NCBI GenBank assembly: GCA_009873635.1
Contig: WAHY01000005.1
Coordinates: 1-40,697 of the forward strand
Reading direction: 5' to 3'
Length of the DNA: 40,697 bases
Source of the DNA: Nitrospinota bacterium
Lineage (GTDB): Bacteria; Nitrospinota; Nitrospinia; Nitrospinales; VA-1
Below the pieces are notes generated by a model. That model saw only the letters and a program-made list of their open reading frames with translations. It did no database searches and had not been told where the DNA came from. Positions 3,597 to 14,039 of the stretch are shown here, one piece after another; position 1 is the first letter of the stretch; every line of letters begins with the position of its first letter. Both the position numbers and the translations under genes were made by a program.

Positions 3597-5849
3597 ATGT
3601 CACTAAAGCATCCCAGGCATATTCTTATAATTGGAGGAGGGGTTTTTCAAGTACCTGCGATCAAAACTGCCAAGTCGATGGGCTTGAAGGTTGTTGTGAC
3701 AGATTATAACCCTGAAGCAGAAGGAATGCTTTTGGCTGATTACCCCATTGAGGTCAGCACCCGCAATATCAACCTTACTGTTAATACTGCCAAACAGTTT
3801 CATAGGGCTTGCCCACTGGATGGAGTTCTGACGGTTGGAACAGATGCTTCCCAGACGGTAGCCGCTGTAGCGGATGCATTGAATTTGCCGGGGATTCCTT
3901 TTGAAGTTGCTGAACGGGCTACCGACAAAATCAAGATGCGCCAGGTGCTCAAGGAAAAAGGTGTATCTGTACCAGACTTCAGGCCAATCTGGACGTTGGA
4001 AGATTGCAGGGAAGCTATCAAAGAAATGCCTCTGCCTCTGGTTATAAAACCTTGCGACAATATGGGCGCGCGTGGAGTGCGCAAAGTAGAACGCCTTGAT
4101 GATCTGATCCCTGCATTTCGTGAAGCCAAAGAAGCCTCCATAAGTGGGAAGCTTATCCTCGAAGAATTTATGGAAGGGCCTGAGTTAAGTCTGGACGCGT
4201 TGGTATTTGAGGATAATATCCATATTACAGGAGTGGCTGACAGAATTATTGAACGGGATCCCTATTTTGTTGAAGTTGGGCATACACTTCCTTCTATCCT
4301 GCCGGCAGAACAGCAGACACAAGCCGTTGATGTTTTCAAACAGGCTATCTCTGCATTGGGGATTGATATTGGAGCGGCCAAGGGGGATATCAAAATAACA
4401 CCAGAAGGTCCCAAGATTGTTGAGATCGCGGCCCGTTTGAGCGGAGGATGGATGTCGGCGTATACTTATCCTTTGGCTACAGGGGTCAACCTTTATAAAG
4501 CGGCTATTCAAATTGCCCTGGGTGAAAAGCCTTCTGATCTGACTCCTAAAACTTCTCTGTTTTCCGCTGAACGTTCTTTGCTGCCCCCTGCAGGAAAAAT
4601 CCTTTCCATTCGAGGTGTGGAAGAAGCACGAAAAATTAAGGGAGTTAAGGAGATCATCCTTATGAAAGAGGCCGGTGATATGTCTGAAGAGCCTCGCAGT
4701 AATATGGGTAAAGTGGGTTACGTCATCACGGTTGGTAAAACCCGCGAGGAAGCCATAAGCATTAATGAGCTGGCGCGCGAAACCCTGAAAATAGAAATAG
4801 GTGCCCCCAACGATCTGACTTGGGACATCATCCGCAATAATGCTCGTAAAAAGTTTTATATTGCCTGCAAAGCCTGCACAGTTTGTGATGGTCTGGAATG
4901 CGCTGGAAAAGTGCCTGGAATAGGAGGAATAGGCACTGGCAGCGCTTTCACAGAAAACTTGACAGCATTGGCTCGATATCAAGTGAACCTTAGAACAATT
5001 CATGAAGTGAAAGCCCCGGATACTTCGGTGGAACTGTTTGGTCATAAGCTCGCTCTTCCAGTCCTGGCAGCACCCATCACGGGAATGGAAACAAATCTGG
5101 CAGGTGGCATGGATGAGCGTGAATACGCAGATGCCATCCTTGATGGATGTCTTGAGTCAGGCACAATAGGGATGGTGGGTGATGGGGCAAGTCCAAAAAA
5201 ATATTTGATTGGACTTGAAGCTATCAAAAAGCGTGGTGGACTGGGAATACCTGTCTTCAAGCCCAGAGAATACAATCTAGATATCATCATGCGGTTCAAA
5301 GCTGCCGAAGATGCCGGTGCTGTTGCGGTAGGGGTCGATATTGACGCTGCTTCGTTTAAAACCATGGCCCAGAAGGGTCAGGCGGTTGGTCCCAAAACAG
5401 TTTCTGAGTTAAGGGAGTTGAAATCTCATTTAAAAGTTCCTTTTATATTGAAAGGCATCATGAATGTGGAGTCGGCTTTAGCGGCGATAGAGGCCGGTGC
5501 CGATGCCATTGTTGTATCTAACCATGGTGGGCGTGTTATGGATCATATGCCGGGAACTGCGGAAGTCCTCCCTGAAATAGCAAATGCAGTGGGTGGAAGA
5601 ATTAAGGTTTTAGTCGATGGGGGTATACGTGAAGGTATTGATATTCTCAAAATGCTGGCACTTGGGGCCGATGTTGTCATGATTGGTCGCCCGGTCTGTA
5701 TTGCTGCATTTGGAGCGGGACAGGAAGGCGTCTCGTATTACTTGAGAGAGAAACTGAATGAATTAAAGAAAGCCATGATTCTAACAGGTTGCGGATCCAT
5801 TGATCAAATTGATCCTTCAATCATATTCCGCAAAAAGGGAGACCGTTAA
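3597..5849 (+). CDS. ATP-grasp ligase / FMN-dependent alpha-hydroxy-acid dehydrogenase fusion protein
   Basis: A 750-residue two-domain enzyme. Residues 1-400 are an ATP-grasp ligase: Rossmann-like start ILIIGGGVFQVPAI, ATP-binding lysine near K151 in VIKPCDNMGARGV, EEFMEGPELSLD at 189-200, and metal-binding EIAARLSGG (E276, R280). Residues 420-740 are an FMN alpha-hydroxy-acid oxidase-type TIM barrel. It has SNHGGRxxD (H643 as catalytic base, R646), LVDGGIREG and MIGRP for FMN phosphate. Between them lies C424-x2-C427-x2-C430-x4-C435, a possible metal or Fe-S site. From memory, stand-alone clostridial hydroxy-acid oxidase homologues start with a similar cysteine motif; I know no such ATP-grasp fusion. 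The next gene begins directly after its stop codon, so the two are probably co-expressed. Substrate unknown. Confidence 0.85.
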   Translation: MSLKHPRHILIIGGGVFQVPAIKTAKSMGLKVVVTDYNPEAEGMLLADYPIEVSTRNINLTVNTAKQFHRACPLDGVLTVGTDASQTVAAVADALNLPGIPFEVAERATDKIKMRQVLKEKGVSVPDFRPIWTLEDCREAIKEMPLPLVIKPCDNMGARGVRKVERLDDLIPAFREAKEASISGKLILEEFMEGPELSLDALVFEDNIHITGVADRIIERDPYFVEVGHTLPSILPAEQQTQAVDVFKQAISALGIDIGAAKGDIKITPEGPKIVEIAARLSGGWMSAYTYPLATGVNLYKAAIQIALGEKPSDLTPKTSLFSAERSLLPPAGKILSIRGVEEARKIKGVKEIILMKEAGDMSEEPRSNMGKVGYVITVGKTREEAISINELARETLKIEIGAPNDLTWDIIRNNARKKFYIACKACTVCDGLECAGKVPGIGGIGTGSAFTENLTALARYQVNLRTIHEVKAPDTSVELFGHKLALPVLAAPITGMETNLAGGMDEREYADAILDGCLESGTIGMVGDGASPKKYLIGLEAIKKRGGLGIPVFKPREYNLDIIMRFKAAEDAGAVAVGVDIDAASFKTMAQKGQAVGPKTVSELRELKSHLKVPFILKGIMNVESALAAIEAGADAIVVSNHGGRVMDHMPGTAEVLPEIANAVGGRIKVLVDGGIREGIDILKMLALGADVVMIGRPVCIAAFGAGQEGVSYYLREKLNELKKAMILTGCGSIDQIDPSIIFRKKGDR

Positions 5850-6635
5850 TTGAAACCTGAGAATCACGTTTTAAAAATGGTCCCGGGTGAGCCTAATAAA
5901 GGTTTGCGTTCTTCACTCTTGAAGCTTAAAAACAATTTTAGAGCTTGCGGTATCAAACTATCTACAGAAGATGCTGCGATGTCTATAGATCAGATCGCTT
6001 ATTGGGCAGAGTTTTGCGATTTATCTACTATTGTAAAGATTGGAGGCCCTAACGCTCGCAACGATATTAAACAACTGTTGCCTTTGAATATTGATGGATT
6101 AATCGCTCCCATGGTGGAATCACCTTATGGGTTGGAAAACTTTATTTCAGCAGTTCGAGATTTCACCACTCCCATGCAGTTTGAGAGGATAAAGAAGCAA
6201 ATCAATATTGAAACTGAGACATCGGTCCGTCAACTGGAATCCATACTTGCTGCACCAGAAGCAAAATATCTTGATGAAATTACAATCGGATGCAGCGACC
6301 TTTCCGAATCCATGAAAAAACCGAAGTGGGACGAGAGTTTCATAGCTTTGGTTTCCAGCATCGTTCAAACAATTAAAAAAAAGAATATCCCTGTTTCCGT
6401 GGGAGGAGGAATAACTCCCAGTACCATTGACGCATACCTGAAAAAAGTCCAGCCGGATCATTTTAATACCCGGGTTGTCATGTTCAATGTGGTACCGGGT
6501 AGCAACTACTCTGAAGCGGTTCAAGCTGCGTTAAGCTTTGAAATCCTTATGCTTGAGCACGATTCGGCCTTGAATTATATTACCCGGGATGAAGAAAAGT
6601 TTCGCATTAAGGAGCTCAAAAAAAGATTAAAGTAG
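5850..6635 (+). CDS. HpcH/HpaI aldolase / citrate lyase beta-like protein
   Basis: 261 residues of the PEP/pyruvate TIM-barrel superfamily. Visible family features are VKIGGPNARNDIKQ (substrate-phosphate strand), DGLIAPMVESPYGLENFI (family pattern iaPmVes), and INIETETSVRQLESIL with ITIGCSDLSESM, where the glutamate and the aspartate are the expected Mg2+ ligands. SVGGGITPSTIDAY follows. The start is taken as TTG immediately after the TAA of the fusion gene, because GGGAG sits nine bases upstream. An ATG at 5877 is an alternative but has no ribosome site. Members cleave or form C-C bonds between pyruvate or acetyl-CoA and an aldehyde or keto acid. The true substrate is not evident. Coupling to the preceding gene suggests one pathway. 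Confidence 0.75.
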   Translation: MKPENHVLKMVPGEPNKGLRSSLLKLKNNFRACGIKLSTEDAAMSIDQIAYWAEFCDLSTIVKIGGPNARNDIKQLLPLNIDGLIAPMVESPYGLENFISAVRDFTTPMQFERIKKQINIETETSVRQLESILAAPEAKYLDEITIGCSDLSESMKKPKWDESFIALVSSIVQTIKKKNIPVSVGGGITPSTIDAYLKKVQPDHFNTRVVMFNVVPGSNYSEAVQAALSFEILMLEHDSALNYITRDEEKFRIKELKKRLK

Positions 6636-6708: not shown

Positions 6709-6736
6709 TTGACAAAAGAGTGAAATGTCATAAAAT
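6709..6736 (+). promoter_or_regulatory. Sigma70-type promoter for aclBA
   Basis: A perfect -35 TTGACA (6709-6714), a 16-bp spacer and a -10 TAAAAT (6731-6736). It lies 133 bp before the aclB ATG, with no other gene between. It fits constitutive high expression of the carbon-fixation enzyme. Confidence 0.7.
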
Positions 6737-6868: not shown

Positions 6869-8137
6869 ATGCAGATAACTGGCATGCTTTGGGGAAGAAA
6901 ATTGTTGGACCTGGTGGAATTCCCCCACTCAGAAGTCCGGGGTCCTGAACTGAGTGTCGATGAGATCAAAGATATGATCAAACGACATGGACAGGTTTTT
7001 ATTAAACCTGTATTCAAAGGTGGTGTAGGAAAGAAAGGCAAGTCTGGTCTTTTAGGGCGTGTAGATAATATCAATGATGCCCTAAAAGAAAAAGAACGGC
7101 TATATTTTGCAGAACATGTAGATGGCTTCAGTAAGGTCAAATCTGATGGTGTTACCTTTGAGGGTGCCGTTCCTGCGGATTATGAAGTTTATTTTTCTAT
7201 TTCTGAGAGCACCGAACACCGCTCTCCTGTCATGACAGTTACTCACCATGGTGGTGTAGATATTGAAGAGTTGGACCCCAGTAAGCTTGCAGTGGTGCCC
7301 TTTGATCCGCTGACAGGTTTGAAAGCATTTCATGTGTCTAATGCTTTGATGGATTTGGGTGCGCCACCTCAAGTAATTAGTCCCTTGGTTCAGAATCTTC
7401 CAAAACTTTGGGATTTATATAACAACTACGGAATGTGGATGCTGGAACTCAATCCCATTCGGATGCAGCCGGGAAAAGGTGGGCGTTTAGCTCCTATTGC
7501 TTGCGATTTTAAATGTGCATTTGACCAAGATGATCCGGCTTGGAAAAGATTGCATCTTCCTACGCATCTTTTTGCATCCGACTATTCAGAGTTCGAACAG
7601 GAGATCAATCAGCTTCGTACCTATCAGGGTCAAAGTGATGTATTTGTGATGAACGATAAAGGAAGCATTACTGCACCTACATTTGGTGGTGGTGCGAATG
7701 CGATGGTTACCGAACTTCTGGGAGAAGATGCAACGATCTCCTCCGACTTTGGTGGTAATCCTCCTTATGAAAAAATGAATGATATTTCCAAAATCAGTTT
7801 TAAATATTGGCTTCCACAATCAAATGTCCTTTTTATTATTGGGGGTAAGGCAAACAACACGGATATTTATGAAACATTCCGTGCTATGGGGGATGGACTG
7901 CGAGAGTTTTTTCAGACACATGGTCCGATTCCACTTTTTGTGGTTGTAGGTCGAGGCGGGCCCAATGTTATTAGAGGTATGAACTATTTGCGGGATGTAT
8001 TGGATTCTCTAGGGCTGCCCTACCGTTTCTTTGGGCATGACAGTGCAATGTCAGAGGTCATCAACTACGCACTTAAGGTGAACGAGTGGATGAAAAACGG
8101 TGGAAAAGACGAAATAAAAGCCAAATTAAAAATTTAA
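6869..8137 (+). CDS. aclB: ATP-citrate lyase small (beta) subunit, ATP-grasp
   Basis: 422 residues, a little longer than the roughly 400 of Chlorobium AclB. It corresponds to the N-terminal part of animal ACLY. The ATP-grasp part carries GQVFIKPVFKGGVGKKGKSGL near residues 40-60 and MWMLELNPIRM, the Mg-binding end. The C-terminal half is the citrate-binding succinyl-CoA-synthetase-like flavodoxin fold (TAPTFGGGANAMVTELLG, SSDFGGNPPYEKM, VVVGRGGPN). With AclA it cleaves citrate, with ATP and CoA, to acetyl-CoA and oxaloacetate in the reductive TCA cycle. The ribosome site GGAGG is 13 bases from the ATG, which is long. aclA follows after 25 bp. The pair is a hallmark of Aquificota, Chlorobi, Nitrospirota and Nitrospinota autotrophs. 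Confidence 0.92.
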   Translation: MQITGMLWGRKLLDLVEFPHSEVRGPELSVDEIKDMIKRHGQVFIKPVFKGGVGKKGKSGLLGRVDNINDALKEKERLYFAEHVDGFSKVKSDGVTFEGAVPADYEVYFSISESTEHRSPVMTVTHHGGVDIEELDPSKLAVVPFDPLTGLKAFHVSNALMDLGAPPQVISPLVQNLPKLWDLYNNYGMWMLELNPIRMQPGKGGRLAPIACDFKCAFDQDDPAWKRLHLPTHLFASDYSEFEQEINQLRTYQGQSDVFVMNDKGSITAPTFGGGANAMVTELLGEDATISSDFGGNPPYEKMNDISKISFKYWLPQSNVLFIIGGKANNTDIYETFRAMGDGLREFFQTHGPIPLFVVVGRGGPNVIRGMNYLRDVLDSLGLPYRFFGHDSAMSEVINYALKVNEWMKNGGKDEIKAKLKI

Positions 8138-8162
8138 CCTAACGAAACTGTTGGAGGTTTGA

Positions 8163-10877
8163 ATGCATAAGCAAGGTGTAGGGGATTTCCCCTTTTACTG
8201 TGGAATAAACTCCCTTTCTGAATTGGCAACTAAAGATGACAGATGCGTGGTCTTAAATATTTTGGGTAAAGAGAGTTCTGGGGTTACCCCGATAAGCCAT
8301 GATTATTCAGGAGGAAATATTGTTTTTGGGACAGGACCTGGTAAGTCTGGTAAGTTTTTACCAACGAAAACCGGAAAAATTCCGGTTTATAACTCAATTA
8401 AGGAGGGGTTGGAGGCAGGCCATAAATTCAATACCGTTGTTATATATCTTCCTCCTTCAGGAGTAAAAGATGGGCTTGCGGAAGCCGTTCGAGATAACCC
8501 AGATCTAAAAAAAGCGATAATACTTACTGAAAAAGTTTCAATAAAAGATTCTCGAATAATGCGTGCAATTTGTCAGGCTAACGGAATTACTCTTTTTGGT
8601 GGCAACTGCCTAGGACTTGCTGATGCTTGGAATCACGTTCGATTAGGTGGGGCATTGGGTGGAAATGCTCCTGAAGAATCTCTCATTAAAGGTTCGGTTG
8701 CTATTTTTTCCAACTCTGGCAACTTCACAACGACAATGGCTGTTTACTTATCTACAGCAGGATGGGGGACAACCACTTCTGTTTCTAGTGGTAAGGATGT
8801 ATACATTCAATATAGTGCTAAAGAATTCCTTTATGCATTCGATAATGATGACCGCTCAAAAGTAGCAGTTCTTTACAGCGAGCCTGGCGGGTATTATGAA
8901 AATGGGCTTAAGTCCAATAAGCCCATCATCGCTTGTGTGGTGGGTCGTTGGAAAGCTCGATTGACCAAGGCCTGCGGTCATGCAGGATCTTTGTCTGGGT
9001 CTGGAGACGATGCCTTGGCAAAAGAACAATGGTTTATGGACTATTTTGGAGTCGACGGAATTTATACACCGGAAAAACCCATCTTTTCGAAAAAGGGCGC
9101 GTTGGTTACCAACATCGCACATATTCCAGAAGCGCTAACGAAAGTTATGGAAATTAACAATACTCAACCTGATTTTGAACCAAAAGGCAGTCTTGATTTA
9201 AAACCCTGGTTTGGAAACAATCAAGGACTTTCTCTTCCCCCTGAATTGGATGTGCCTATTGTTGAAGCAGCAAGTCCATATAACGAACAGATCGAAGCGT
9301 TGGATAAAATGGTGGGAGCACAGCATCGTCGTGAAACCTTAAAAGATGCCAGTGGTGCCTCAATGATGGATCCAAAAACCCAAGTATCAAAAATTCATAA
9401 CACCTCGATTCTCGATGCTTCAATGAAAACCTTTGAATCCAACTTGGTTTTTGCTCTTACGCGACAATACACTTGTGATTATGGTGAAAAGATTGCAAAC
9501 ATCGTTTTAAATATGTATACCAACCAGCACAACCAACCCACGCTGGTAGCCGCTGAAGCGGCTCGTGAAAACGGAAACTCTCCGAATACGGTGGTCTCCT
9601 CTGCTGTAGCTATTGTTGGTAAGAAAATGGTACAAAAGGCAATGGATGCCTCTTGCGCATTGTTGGATTTATTTCAGTTTACCAAACTCGCCGGTCCAAA
9701 AGAAAAATTTGATTACTCGGCTCAATTAAAGGAAGCAGAAAAGTATAAAGACGCTTTACTTTCCGATGGTGAAGATCATTGTGCTGCTAAATTGGCTGAA
9801 TATTTAAATAAGGCTGGTGATTCTGTGTTCATCAAATTTGTACAAGACTTTGCAGTAGCAAATGGTGGAAAGCTTTCTACCGATGCTTTATTTGGTGCGG
9901 TATGGGTTACCCTTGGCTGGGAATCATTGAGAGGCAAAAAGATTTCAAAAGACACGCTCGTCCGTCTTCCTTGGTATTCACGTATCTACAGTACAATTGT
10001 TGGGGTTTCTGCGCCAGCTTCTAGACATACAGAAGATAGCATTGCCGAAGTTAAGCTTGAGGAATTGATTCCTAATTATAGCTTTACTAAAACAGCATTC
10101 GTTACTTTGTTGGGTAGACAACCCTCTGAGTCCGAGTTGTATGAGTTCCAGGTTTTACTGGGACTTATAATCACAAACGGACCGGGTACCATCTCAGCCC
10201 AAGGTTCGAAGGGCGCAGTCAGCGCCGATGGACCCGAACAACCCCAGAGAGTGCAGGTGAATAAAGGTTTTATTGGTTTCCTCACGCATACCGGTTTTGC
10301 TCATGGTGGAAACGGCTTTGAAGCGGCAGCATTTTTGATGGAAAACTTTAAAGACACTGGTTTGAAAGATCCTGCAGACGCGAATCATGGTCTAAACCTT
10401 GATGCTATGGCTCTAAAAGTTGCCAACGATTATGCAAACTACAAGAAAAAACAGAAAGCAGTCGGAAATCTTGATTATGCCAAGCTACCTTGTGTGAACC
10501 ATCCTGTATTTAAAGGTAAAGATGTTAACTACGATCCGCGTGAAGTATTCGTCAATGATCTTTTTAAAGAAAAGGGTATTAATAACGTTTTTCTTGATTT
10601 TTACCATAGTCTTGTTCAAGGCTTGTTCAAAGCGAAAGTCAGTAAGAATGTTTATTGTGTAAATATTGATGCGGTTATTGCCGTTATCCTTCTGAAAATT
10701 GTCTGGTCAGATTTCAACGCAGGCAAGATGAAAGAAGAGGATATCGAATCTGCCAGCTTTGCAACCTTCTTATTCGGCAGAATGATTGGTTGTGCAGCTG
10801 AGATTGATGATCATACCTCGCGTGGCAAAAACATGGATACACGAACACCAGCGAGCAAATGCTCGTATGTAGGTTAG
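8163..10877 (+). CDS. aclA: ATP-citrate lyase large (alpha) subunit, long divergent type
   Basis: 904 residues against about 610 for the Chlorobium type. Order: a CoA-binding Rossmann domain (about 20-170), a succinyl-CoA-ligase-like domain with the phosphohistidine loop CGHAGSLSG (H273), a segment of about 230 residues (330-560) I could not assign, and a citrate-synthase-like domain (about 565-890). Compared by eye with animal ACLY, H780 (CVNHPVFKGK) and D836 (NIDAVIAV) match two catalytic residues. The first catalytic histidine is replaced: the TADHGPAVSG-like segment reads IITNGPGTIS, with N672. Long divergent ACLs are known in Leptospirillum, Nitrospira and Nitrospina, and this one fits them. 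Good Shine-Dalgarno (GGAGG, five bases). A terminator follows the gene. Confidence 0.9.
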   Translation: MHKQGVGDFPFYCGINSLSELATKDDRCVVLNILGKESSGVTPISHDYSGGNIVFGTGPGKSGKFLPTKTGKIPVYNSIKEGLEAGHKFNTVVIYLPPSGVKDGLAEAVRDNPDLKKAIILTEKVSIKDSRIMRAICQANGITLFGGNCLGLADAWNHVRLGGALGGNAPEESLIKGSVAIFSNSGNFTTTMAVYLSTAGWGTTTSVSSGKDVYIQYSAKEFLYAFDNDDRSKVAVLYSEPGGYYENGLKSNKPIIACVVGRWKARLTKACGHAGSLSGSGDDALAKEQWFMDYFGVDGIYTPEKPIFSKKGALVTNIAHIPEALTKVMEINNTQPDFEPKGSLDLKPWFGNNQGLSLPPELDVPIVEAASPYNEQIEALDKMVGAQHRRETLKDASGASMMDPKTQVSKIHNTSILDASMKTFESNLVFALTRQYTCDYGEKIANIVLNMYTNQHNQPTLVAAEAARENGNSPNTVVSSAVAIVGKKMVQKAMDASCALLDLFQFTKLAGPKEKFDYSAQLKEAEKYKDALLSDGEDHCAAKLAEYLNKAGDSVFIKFVQDFAVANGGKLSTDALFGAVWVTLGWESLRGKKISKDTLVRLPWYSRIYSTIVGVSAPASRHTEDSIAEVKLEELIPNYSFTKTAFVTLLGRQPSESELYEFQVLLGLIITNGPGTISAQGSKGAVSADGPEQPQRVQVNKGFIGFLTHTGFAHGGNGFEAAAFLMENFKDTGLKDPADANHGLNLDAMALKVANDYANYKKKQKAVGNLDYAKLPCVNHPVFKGKDVNYDPREVFVNDLFKEKGINNVFLDFYHSLVQGLFKAKVSKNVYCVNIDAVIAVILLKIVWSDFNAGKMKEEDIESASFATFLFGRMIGCAAEIDDHTSRGKNMDTRTPASKCSYVG

Positions 10878-11167: not shown

Positions 11168-11926
11168 GTGCAGGCTCAGGAAGGGGTATTGAAAGCTCCT
11201 TATCATTATTCATTGATTCAAAAATATATTTTTGACGATTTACCTCTAATCGCCATGAACGTGGCTCGCATTGGCGCTCAAACTCCAGGAATGGCTTACG
11301 AGACCGCCGGTGGCGAACTACATTGGGTAACGATTGGATTCGGCCCTATGATTTGGTTGCTCATTACGCCGGATCTCCCAGCACCAGGAGGGTTTCGTGC
11401 ATTTGATGAAGTCGATATTGGAGATAAAGAGATCTCAGAATCTGAAGGTGATATGTTGCTGTATTTTTCTTCCGGCCAGCCTAAGCTAAACCGGAAACTT
11501 GCTCGGAGTGTAGGTGAACTGTTTGGGAACAATGGTAGATTAATTGAAGAAGTGGAAGTAGAAGGGGGCGAACATTCAGATTTTTCAGGAGTGAAAAAAC
11601 AGTTGCTTATTGATGATCCAAACTTTCTTGATCAGGCACAAAGCAGTTTTTTGAGCACGCACCGTTTCTTAACCAAAGAAGATTCTGACTGTGATTTGCT
11701 GCAACACCGCTATAATTATAAAGCAGAATGTGGTGGATCGGGTGACTATGTTTTGACCTTTAATAATAAACCATTCAGGTTGGAAGAACATAGTGAGTCC
11801 TTAACACAACCTCCAATTTCGCGGGGCCTATTTTTCATACCCTCTCTCGATTTATTGACCAGCCTGAGAATGGGTGGTATCCGTATGGGTTCCCTTGCCA
11901 TCAACGCCAAATGGAAAGGGCATTAA
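11168..11926 (+). CDS. DyP-type peroxidase-like protein with degenerate active site
   Basis: 252 residues from GTG, with GGAGG six bases upstream. The layout follows B-type dye-decolourising peroxidases of the YfeX kind: VTIGFGPMIWLLITPD near residues 53-69, GFRAFDEV, the SEGDMLLYF strand, LFGNNGRLIEEVEVEGG, and a C-terminal RGLFFIPSLDLLTSL that resembles the YfeX ending. The diagnostic GFxDGxxNP loop with the catalytic aspartate is absent; its place reads HSDFSGVKKQLL (137-147). H180 in LLQHRYNY could be the proximal heme histidine, but that alignment is weak. It may bind heme without peroxidase activity or have another role. It lies 290 bp after aclA behind a terminator, so it is probably a separate unit. 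The family call rests on pattern reading only. Confidence 0.5.
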   Translation: MQAQEGVLKAPYHYSLIQKYIFDDLPLIAMNVARIGAQTPGMAYETAGGELHWVTIGFGPMIWLLITPDLPAPGGFRAFDEVDIGDKEISESEGDMLLYFSSGQPKLNRKLARSVGELFGNNGRLIEEVEVEGGEHSDFSGVKKQLLIDDPNFLDQAQSSFLSTHRFLTKEDSDCDLLQHRYNYKAECGGSGDYVLTFNNKPFRLEEHSESLTQPPISRGLFFIPSLDLLTSLRMGGIRMGSLAINAKWKGH

Positions 11927-11967: not shown

Positions 11968-12411
11968 TTAGAGGTTTTGGTGGTCTCCACTATTTATGGT
12001 TTCGAGGCGTTTTACTAAAACTTCAATCAGTTTGTCTTTCAATTTCGATGAAATATTTGGTTTGAGTTTGTCCATATTTTGAGTGTCTATTTTCAGCGCA
12101 ATAGCGTTTCCATCAGCTACGACAGTGGTGGTTCGAACTCGTTTTAAAATACAGGAGATCTCTCCAAATACAGCACCTGCTTTAAGTGTGGTAAGAACCA
12201 TATCGTTAGAGTTGCTTTTAATAACAGTCACTAAGCCTTTTAGAAGTATGAAAAAAGAATAATCTAATTCTCCTTCCCTGATAATTACATCGGTAGAGTT
12301 GAATCCCCAGATTTGATTGTCCAAAGTGCTGATGGAGTGCTTTTCTTCCTGAGTGAAGTTTTCAAAGAAGGGAAGTTTGTCAATAAGTTCAAATGCTTGT
12401 TTCTGTTCCAC
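11968..12411 (-). CDS. Cyclic-nucleotide-binding domain protein without HTH
   Basis: 147 residues starting at GTG, with AGGA 11 bases upstream. It is a single cNMP-binding beta-roll. FFILLKGLVTVIKS and the phosphate-binding cassette AVFGEISCILKRVRTTTVVADG (conserved G-E and R-T) are visible. The C-terminal helix is followed by no winged helix, so it is not a Crp/Fnr transcription factor. It is more likely a small sensor or partner domain. It lies downstream of gcvPB on the same strand with a 128-bp gap that may hold its own promoter. Confidence 0.85.
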   Translation of the reverse strand: MEQKQAFELIDKLPFFENFTQEEKHSISTLDNQIWGFNSTDVIIREGELDYSFFILLKGLVTVIKSNSNDMVLTTLKAGAVFGEISCILKRVRTTTVVADGNAIALKIDTQNMDKLKPNISSKLKDKLIEVLVKRLETINSGDHQNL

Positions 12412-12481
12412 TTAATGGGATCCTAGTTAGTTTTTAATATGTCATTTTATTTAATTACAAAGTTAATAAAAGCCCCATTCA

Positions 12482-12501
12482 ATGAACAAATTCCTGTTCA
12501 T
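12482..12501. promoter_or_regulatory. Inverted repeat between gcvPB and the cNMP-domain gene
   Basis: ATGAACA-N6-TGTTCAT is a perfect 7-bp dyad with 6-bp spacing, in the 128-bp gap upstream of the cNMP gene. The spacing fits a dimeric regulator. No T-run follows on the minus strand, so a terminator is less likely. Confidence 0.35.
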
Positions 12502-12539
12502 CGTAAAGATATAGTTTTCTGCCGGGTATTGTTTTCTCA

Positions 12540-14039
12540 TTACCCTTTTATATGCCTCTTCCAGCGTAATTTTGGATGACGGGCGGCCTGGGCTTCATCG
12601 GGACGTGACACTTTAGGCAGGCAAGGCGAAGCGTGCAAGCTGTCCGGATCTTCTTTACCCTTATCTGCAATAGATTTCATCGCATCAATAAAATTGTCCA
12701 ACGTTTCCTTCGATTCCGTTTCAGTAGGCTCGATCATCAACGCGCCTTTGACAATCAGTGGAAAATATACGGTAGGTGGATGGAAACCTTTATCAATGAG
12801 GGCTTTGGCGAAATCCATTGTGGTGATACCTTGCCCTTTATCGTTGAAGACGCATTCATGTAAAGTCGGCCCTGTAAATGGCAGGTGGAATGTGTCTTTC
12901 AATCGGGCGCGAATATAATTTGCGTTCAGGACTGCAGATTGAGCCACTTCCCGAATGCCTTCCGCTCCCAGTGTTCGAATGTAGGCGTAGGCACGTAACA
13001 GCATACCAAAGTTGCCGTTGAAAGATTTCAGCCTGCCGACACTTTCTGGACGGTCCGCGTTTAGCCTGTATTTTGATCCTGTTTTTTCTACTACTGGTGC
13101 GGGCAGATAAGGTTCAAGTATGTTTTTAATACAAACAGGGCCTGCACCCGGACCACCACCGCCATGCGGGGTTGAAAAAGTTTTGTGCAGGTTGATATGC
13201 AGCACATCGATTCCCATATCACCCATTTTGGCAATTCCCATAACAGCGTTTAAGTTGGCTCCATCACAATAAACAAGCCCGCCTTTTTTGTGGACGATTT
13301 CTGTGATTTTTAAAATGTCTTTTTCAAACATTCCCAACGTGTTGGGATTGGTCAGCATGATTGCTGCTGTTTCTTCATCCATTGCCGCTTCAAGTTTGGT
13401 GACATCAATCATCCCTTCAGCATTGGATGGTAATTGAACGGATTTGTATCCGCATAACGTGGCACTGGCCGGGTTTGTACCGTGGGCGGAATCGGGAAGT
13501 AATACTTTTTTTCTGGGGTTACCTTGTGCAGAGTGGTAGGCCTGGATCATCAGCATGCCCGCAAACTCTCCCTGGGCTCCAGCAGCAGGTTGCAGGCTGG
13601 CGTGATCCATTCCGCTGATTATTTTCAGGCATTCCTGCAACTCATACATCAACTGAAGGCTGCCTTGCGAGTCTGAACAAGGTGTCATCGGGTGGTGCTG
13701 AGCGAAGCCGGGCAATCGCGCCAAGGTCTCATTAATTTTGGGGTTGTATTTCATGGTACACGATCCCAATGGGTAGAAATTTGTGTCGATGCTAAAGTTC
13801 CACTGGGATAGCCGGGTGTAATGGCGTACCACATCAAGTTCGGTAAGTTCCGGGAGTTCTTCTATCTCCTCGCGGATTTCTGTTGGTGGCAGTAAGGTTT
13901 CAATCTCTACTTCTGGTACATCACAAGAAGGTAGGGAATAAGCCTTTCGACCTGGGGAACCCATTTCAAATACAAGCGGTTCTTCAAAGATCAAACCAGA
14001 TGTTCCCGGGCTATTCGATTTTTTTGGCACTTGATTCAT
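12540..14039 (-). CDS. gcvPB: Glycine dehydrogenase (decarboxylating) subunit 2
   Basis: 499 residues, the usual length for the GcvPB half of a split P-protein. It is PLP-dependent; the Schiff-base lysine is K286 in HINLHKTFSTPHGGGGPG. Other family blocks are FYPLGSCTMKYNPK, SLQPAAGAQGE, DSAHGTNPASA and CDGANLNA. It decarboxylates glycine and passes the aminomethyl group to GcvH lipoamide. It could run in reverse in an autotroph, which is speculation. Shine-Dalgarno AAAGGAA sits before the ATG. The usual partners gcvT, gcvH and gcvPA are not in the window; the gene instead follows a glycosyltransferase gene by 15 bp. Confidence 0.95.
   Translation of the reverse strand: MNQVPKKSNSPGTSGLIFEEPLVFEMGSPGRKAYSLPSCDVPEVEIETLLPPTEIREEIEELPELTELDVVRHYTRLSQWNFSIDTNFYPLGSCTMKYNPKINETLARLPGFAQHHPMTPCSDSQGSLQLMYELQECLKIISGMDHASLQPAAGAQGEFAGMLMIQAYHSAQGNPRKKVLLPDSAHGTNPASATLCGYKSVQLPSNAEGMIDVTKLEAAMDEETAAIMLTNPNTLGMFEKDILKITEIVHKKGGLVYCDGANLNAVMGIAKMGDMGIDVLHINLHKTFSTPHGGGGPGAGPVCIKNILEPYLPAPVVEKTGSKYRLNADRPESVGRLKSFNGNFGMLLRAYAYIRTLGAEGIREVAQSAVLNANYIRARLKDTFHLPFTGPTLHECVFNDKGQGITTMDFAKALIDKGFHPPTVYFPLIVKGALMIEPTETESKETLDNFIDAMKSIADKGKEDPDSLHASPCLPKVSRPDEAQAARHPKLRWKRHIKG

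Follow-up and report, generated by a model that had tools for sequence, protein, structure and literature searches.

An ATP-grasp/FMN-barrel fusion and an HpcH/HpaI-like aldolase as a probable two-protein module beside, and independent of, ATP-citrate lyase in Nitrospinota

The window, a 40,697-nucleotide stretch that forms part of a 2.6-Mb Nitrospinota genome, carries two directly adjoining genes on the forward strand. The first (3597-5849, ATG start) encodes a 750-residue bifunctional protein in which a LAL-type ATP-grasp ligase, a four-cysteine segment and an FMN_dh barrel follow one another; the second (5850-6635, TTG start) encodes a 261-residue homologue of the HpcH/HpaI-like class II aldolases. 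There is good support for regarding fusion and aldolase as a two-gene module. The best explanation, which we consider somewhat probable, is that they form a conserved metabolic module of two proteins with no relation to ATP-citrate lyase, in which the ligase, flavin and aldolase activities would follow the scheme proposed below. A narrower claim is put forward tentatively: the ligase-flavoprotein, which probably carries an Fe-S cluster, and the aldolase may produce a new metabolite through amide formation followed by oxidation in one polypeptide, in spirochaetes, nitrite-oxidising Nitrospinota and Hydrogenedentota.

A single stop-free reading frame extends across 3597-5849 and accounts for the whole fusion protein. 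Pfam profiles place ATP-grasp_3/4 at residues 108-287 and LAL_C2 at residues 328-401 (7e-19), followed by FMN_dh (E 4e-68), whose best-matching stretch covers residues 600-743. The alignment with 22 other Nitrospinota sequences gives full-length identities of 71-94%, higher than the 50-80% found for the aldolase, and conservation at this level indicates that the architecture is not due to chance. The uninterrupted frame, the domains and these identities bear out the 750-residue ATP-grasp/FMN fusion that had been read from the DNA in the preliminary description. The fusion is an old family, and a handful of queries in the open-access subset of the full-text literature returned no description of it. 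Its predicted structure is of moderate confidence (pLDDT 77 overall, below 50 in the four-cysteine segment); one half of the model matches the L-amino acid ligase 3vot and the other matches mandelate and hydroxyacid oxidases. At the left end of the window, a transposase/integrase open reading frame (rve, HTH_21) occupies positions 104-850.

The ATP-grasp half comprises residues 1-401, including LAL_C2 (3597-4799, forward strand). In an active-site alignment of 70 fusions from Nitrospinota, Spirochaetota and Hydrogenedentota, residues K151, E189, E196, D264, E276 and R280 are invariant in all 70 sequences; their nucleotide- and metal-binding roles are assigned as in ATP-grasp enzymes generally. 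The similarity to L-amino acid ligases is evident both in sequence (phmmer 2e-36) and in the predicted fold (Foldseek E 2e-30, TMt 0.80-0.82 against 3vot, the best PDB relative). The half thus combines ATP-grasp and LAL_C2 domains, a LAL structural match and intact nucleotide and metal residues. In the tree of this half, the placement of stand-alone forms from Treponema and Gammaproteobacteria among the fusions is tentative, since their branches are long.

Regarding the flavin half, the FMN_dh TIM barrel spans about residues 465-743 (4989-5825, forward strand). K619, at the flavin site, is invariant in the 70 fusions, and H643 and R646, together with the four cysteines, are retained in 67-68 of them. 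HMMER alignment with human HAO1 and lactate oxidase brings the catalytic Lys, His and Arg of the family into register. In the same alignment P552 occupies the position of HAO1 Tyr132, the tyrosine of the substrate-carboxylate site, and in our own mapping, an ungapped count from D581, the position of glycolate oxidase R164 holds mostly a lysine (K588). Because the three catalytic residues are kept but the carboxylate-binding Tyr and Arg are replaced, the designation hydroxy-acid oxidase describes only a family resemblance. The initial family assignments stand at the superfamily level, whereas a full alpha-hydroxy-acid oxidase, as the flavin half had first been called, is too strong; this half is a member of the fold family and should not bear that enzyme name.

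The four cysteines (C424, C427, C430 and C435; 4866-4901, forward strand) are arranged as C-x2-C-x2-C-x4-C, a candidate Fe-S site at which a cluster is possible; the low pLDDT of the segment within the fusion model leaves this idea without structural support. Two clear exceptions among the 70 aligned fusions, both from one Spirochaetota clade, have lost the four cysteines, the catalytic His and the Arg together while the ligase half is intact, which suggests that the cysteine motif and the flavin site work as one. These degenerate flavin halves are found at 7309-9519 of locus L266 and 7714-9885 of locus L267. A truncated match pattern resembling these two is seen in about 24 Spirochaetota genomes.

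The TTG start of the aldolase gene at 5850 follows the TAA of the fusion with no intervening nucleotide, so the abutting arrangement first described holds. The product matches HpcH_HpaI (PF03328) above the gathering score (5.6e-08), and its predicted structure (pLDDT 91) has the fold of the class II pyruvate aldolases HpaI, HpcH and YfaU. The metal-ligand motifs are aligned by the profile search, with E121 and D150 as the predicted Glu/Asp metal site. In a manual alignment, HpaI R70 and H45 appear to correspond to K63 and D41, although no tool aligned both positions confidently. Identity as a citrate lyase beta or citryl-CoA lyase was also considered; no NCBIfam model matches, and the best sequence and fold matches are of the HpaI type. 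Of the original double assignment, the HpcH/HpaI part is retained on the basis of Pfam and fold, and the citrate lyase beta part, with no specific model or structure match, is dropped.

The pairing of the two genes is conserved well beyond the window. Among 77 Nitrospinota genomes, the fusion is present in 39 (33 full-length, the others contig fragments; one 29%-identical ligase-only match is left out of this count), the aldolase orthologue in 34 and both in 33. The fused form and, in Nitrospinota, the neighbourhood shared with the aldolase, whose conservation the preliminary description had proposed to check, are both retained. The full fusion is also found in about 125 of 296 sampled Spirochaetota genomes (~42%) and in both Hydrogenedentota genomes searched. 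The contig scan beyond Nitrospinota used two exact peptide patterns, and the phyla that it found, with no Nitrospirota among them, need not represent the full range; in a set of seven non-Nitrospinota genomes with the fusion, the aldolase is present in six. Most genomes are MAGs, whose completeness affects all these presence/absence counts.

In Nitrospinota the fusion adjoins the aldolase. The Hydrogenedentota locus L123 has the reverse of the Nitrospinota order, with the aldolase gene directly upstream of the fusion gene. At the Spirochaetota loci examined, fusion and aldolase stand apart. The aldolase profile matches 75 of the 296 Spirochaetota genomes, and the full fusion is present in 64 of these 75 versus 61 of the 221 aldolase-less genomes (odds ratio 15, Fisher p 7e-19, a test that ignores shared descent). 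The co-occurrence of unlinked genes in Spirochaetota and the reverse-order adjacency in Hydrogenedentota provide the best evidence that fusion and aldolase act together, and the earlier proposal of one small pathway for both is upheld by these data and by the adjacency in Nitrospinota. It is improbable that the two proteins have separate roles and that their adjacency in Nitrospinota merely reflects inherited gene order: the reverse-order pair is an independent case of adjacency, the genes co-occur strongly in Spirochaetota though unlinked, and one Nitrospinota genome (G030) has lost both, apparently through one deletion. Such separate roles would nevertheless be consistent with the fusions that have no strong aldolase match (61 in Spirochaetota and six in Nitrospinota, some of the latter in incomplete genomes or on cut contigs), which indicate that the aldolase may not be obligatory. 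They would also agree with the Nitrospinota genus g7, where no aldolase adjoins the fusion, and with the other frequent neighbours of the Spirochaetota aldolase, among them a membrane protein family. Genes of this family lie shortly downstream of the aldolase at 12041-13072 of locus L194 and at 13 similar loci. No third pathway gene was found near the Spirochaetota fusions or aldolases, where the neighbours are varied and the recurrent membrane protein belongs to no enzyme family.

The genes for ATP-citrate lyase, aclB (6869-8137) and aclA (8163-10877), lie downstream on the same strand and are judged to be outside the module. The distance from the aldolase stop to the aclB start is 233 bp, not the roughly 70 bp initially given, and the gap contains a promoter-like TTGACA-N16-TAAAAT element (6709-6736, forward strand) that is conserved in relatives. 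This element is also kept before aclB in G030, a genome that has lost the pair except for a short aldolase-like 3' end. Conservation of the site, even where the pair is absent, indicates that aclBA probably has its own start. In the corresponding locus of G030 (L172, about 6420-6470) the deletion appears clean, the short aldolase 3' end being joined to the end of a TPR gene.

The reading originally advanced, a small di- or tricarboxylic acid pathway tied to ATP-citrate lyase and the reductive TCA cycle, draws on the gene order fusion-aldolase-aclB-aclA, which most members of the taxonomic order share. However, the flanks are partly kept as well, with XerC-, HslU- and HslV-like genes upstream and a polyprenyl-synthase-like gene downstream (named by eye from the sequence), and the arrangement is therefore part of a longer regional synteny. 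ATP-citrate lyase is present in 60 of the 77 Nitrospinota genomes, 24 of which have neither fusion nor aldolase, and in genome G045 the pair stays while acl sits on another contig. In Spirochaetota, any ATP-citrate lyase match is limited to 7 of 296 genomes, against 125 with the fusion. Two further observations favour the tie: all four Spirochaetota genomes with full-length AclA carry fusion and aldolase, and a distant Ilyobacter aldolase relative (28% identity) adjoins aconitase and isocitrate-type dehydrogenases. The promoter-like element, which G030 retains despite the loss of the pair, speaks against the tie as well. As a general explanation, a connection with ATP-citrate lyase or the reductive TCA cycle is largely refuted, and we regard it as very improbable. 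Membership of the pair in an acl/rTCA operon was likewise set aside, as the gap with its promoter-like site and a co-occurrence that fails in both directions would not fit one. The 904-residue AclA of the window has a succinyl-CoA-ligase-alpha-like region (~21-299) and a citryl-CoA-lyase-like region (~622-902), separated by ~320 residues that match no family. For the 252-residue product of 11168-11926, which recurs downstream of aclA in several relatives, neither Pfam nor NCBIfam gives a match.

For the two-protein module itself, the following chemistry can be proposed. The ATP-grasp half would most likely activate a carboxylate with ATP to an acyl phosphate and join it to an amine, presumably giving an amide. 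The flavin half would most likely remove two electrons from a carbon beside a carbonyl or amine, either in that molecule or in one related to it. H643 would act as the base, and these electrons may be handed on to an acceptor, possibly by way of an Fe-S cluster bound to the four cysteines. The aldolase, a separate metal-dependent enzyme, would make or cleave the 2-oxo-acid partner of that molecule. The order of these steps is likewise presumptive.

A rival and more specific explanation, rather unlikely but better placed than separate roles, is that the module adds an amide-linked group to a glycan of the nonulosonic-acid type on the cell surface or the flagellum; the ligase would join an acid to an amino sugar and the aldolase would build an oxo-acid piece. 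It arises from the relatives of the ligase half. The closest stand-alone ATP-grasp relatives found on annotated records (40% identity) come from Parabacteroides and Enterococcus hirae, where they stand next to sugar transferase and DegT aminotransferase genes within capsule clusters, and a Solidesulfovibrio relative (36%) lies within a pseB/pseC/pseF cluster. Such relatives in Treponema and Gammaproteobacteria have CMP-sugar-type cytidylyltransferase genes as neighbours, and in Treponema FlaA is close by as well. In both Hydrogenedentota genomes the gene after the fusion belongs to PF01973 (MptE-like), which includes the Maf flagellin glycosyltransferases, and a distant aldolase relative in genome G007 has a cytidylyltransferase as its neighbour within a sugar cluster. 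Furthermore, deletion of Shewanella sfmE, an ATP-grasp_4 gene in an operon with NeuB, TPP and methyltransferase genes, alters the flagellin mass (PMC3765264); this effect would bear on the fusion ligase only if the two are homologous. The fusion itself, however, stands outside glycan clusters in Nitrospinota and in nearly all Spirochaetota examined, and the PF01973 genes of Hydrogenedentota are the only sign of a glycan theme seen in its own neighbourhoods. The stand-alone relatives, moreover, are 30-44% identical and have no flavin half, and their function may differ for these reasons.

Retention of both active sites in three phyla and in ~42% of the sampled Spirochaetota makes it unlikely that the fused ligase-oxidoreductase is trivial. 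Fusion and aldolase offer a well-bounded two-gene target, with clear assays, in the search for a new metabolite or glycan decoration, and the adjacency to aclBA in Nitrospinota should not be read as a link to carbon fixation.

In comparison with known systems, the aldolase resembles HpaI, HpcH and YfaU in fold (TM about 0.6) and has their IET and DLS metal-ligand motifs, but its identity to them is only about 17%. The ligase half is 36-40% identical, across about 380 residues, to the Enterococcus hirae (WP_010738103.1) and Solidesulfovibrio (WP_129356101.1) proteins; unlike the fusion, these have no flavin half, and their annotated neighbourhoods contain no HpcH-type aldolase. The entire ATP-grasp half, LAL_C2 included, aligns with the L-amino acid ligases BL00235 (PDB 3vot) and RizA (4wd3), from which the protein differs in the fused FMN barrel and at an identity of ~25%. 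With glycolate oxidase, HAO1, lactate oxidase and mandelate oxidase the flavin half has in common the FMN_dh fold and the aligned catalytic Lys, His and Arg, whereas the replacement of Tyr by P552 and of Arg by K588, the added four-cysteine segment and the fusion to a ligase set it apart. The closest stand-alone relatives found for this half are clostridial proteins annotated as alpha-hydroxy-acid oxidizing protein, from Vescimonas (WP_212821939.1) and Acetoanaerobium, which are 42-48% identical over nearly the whole FMN half and carry the same C-x2-C-x2-C-x4-C motif, but are not fused to a ligase.
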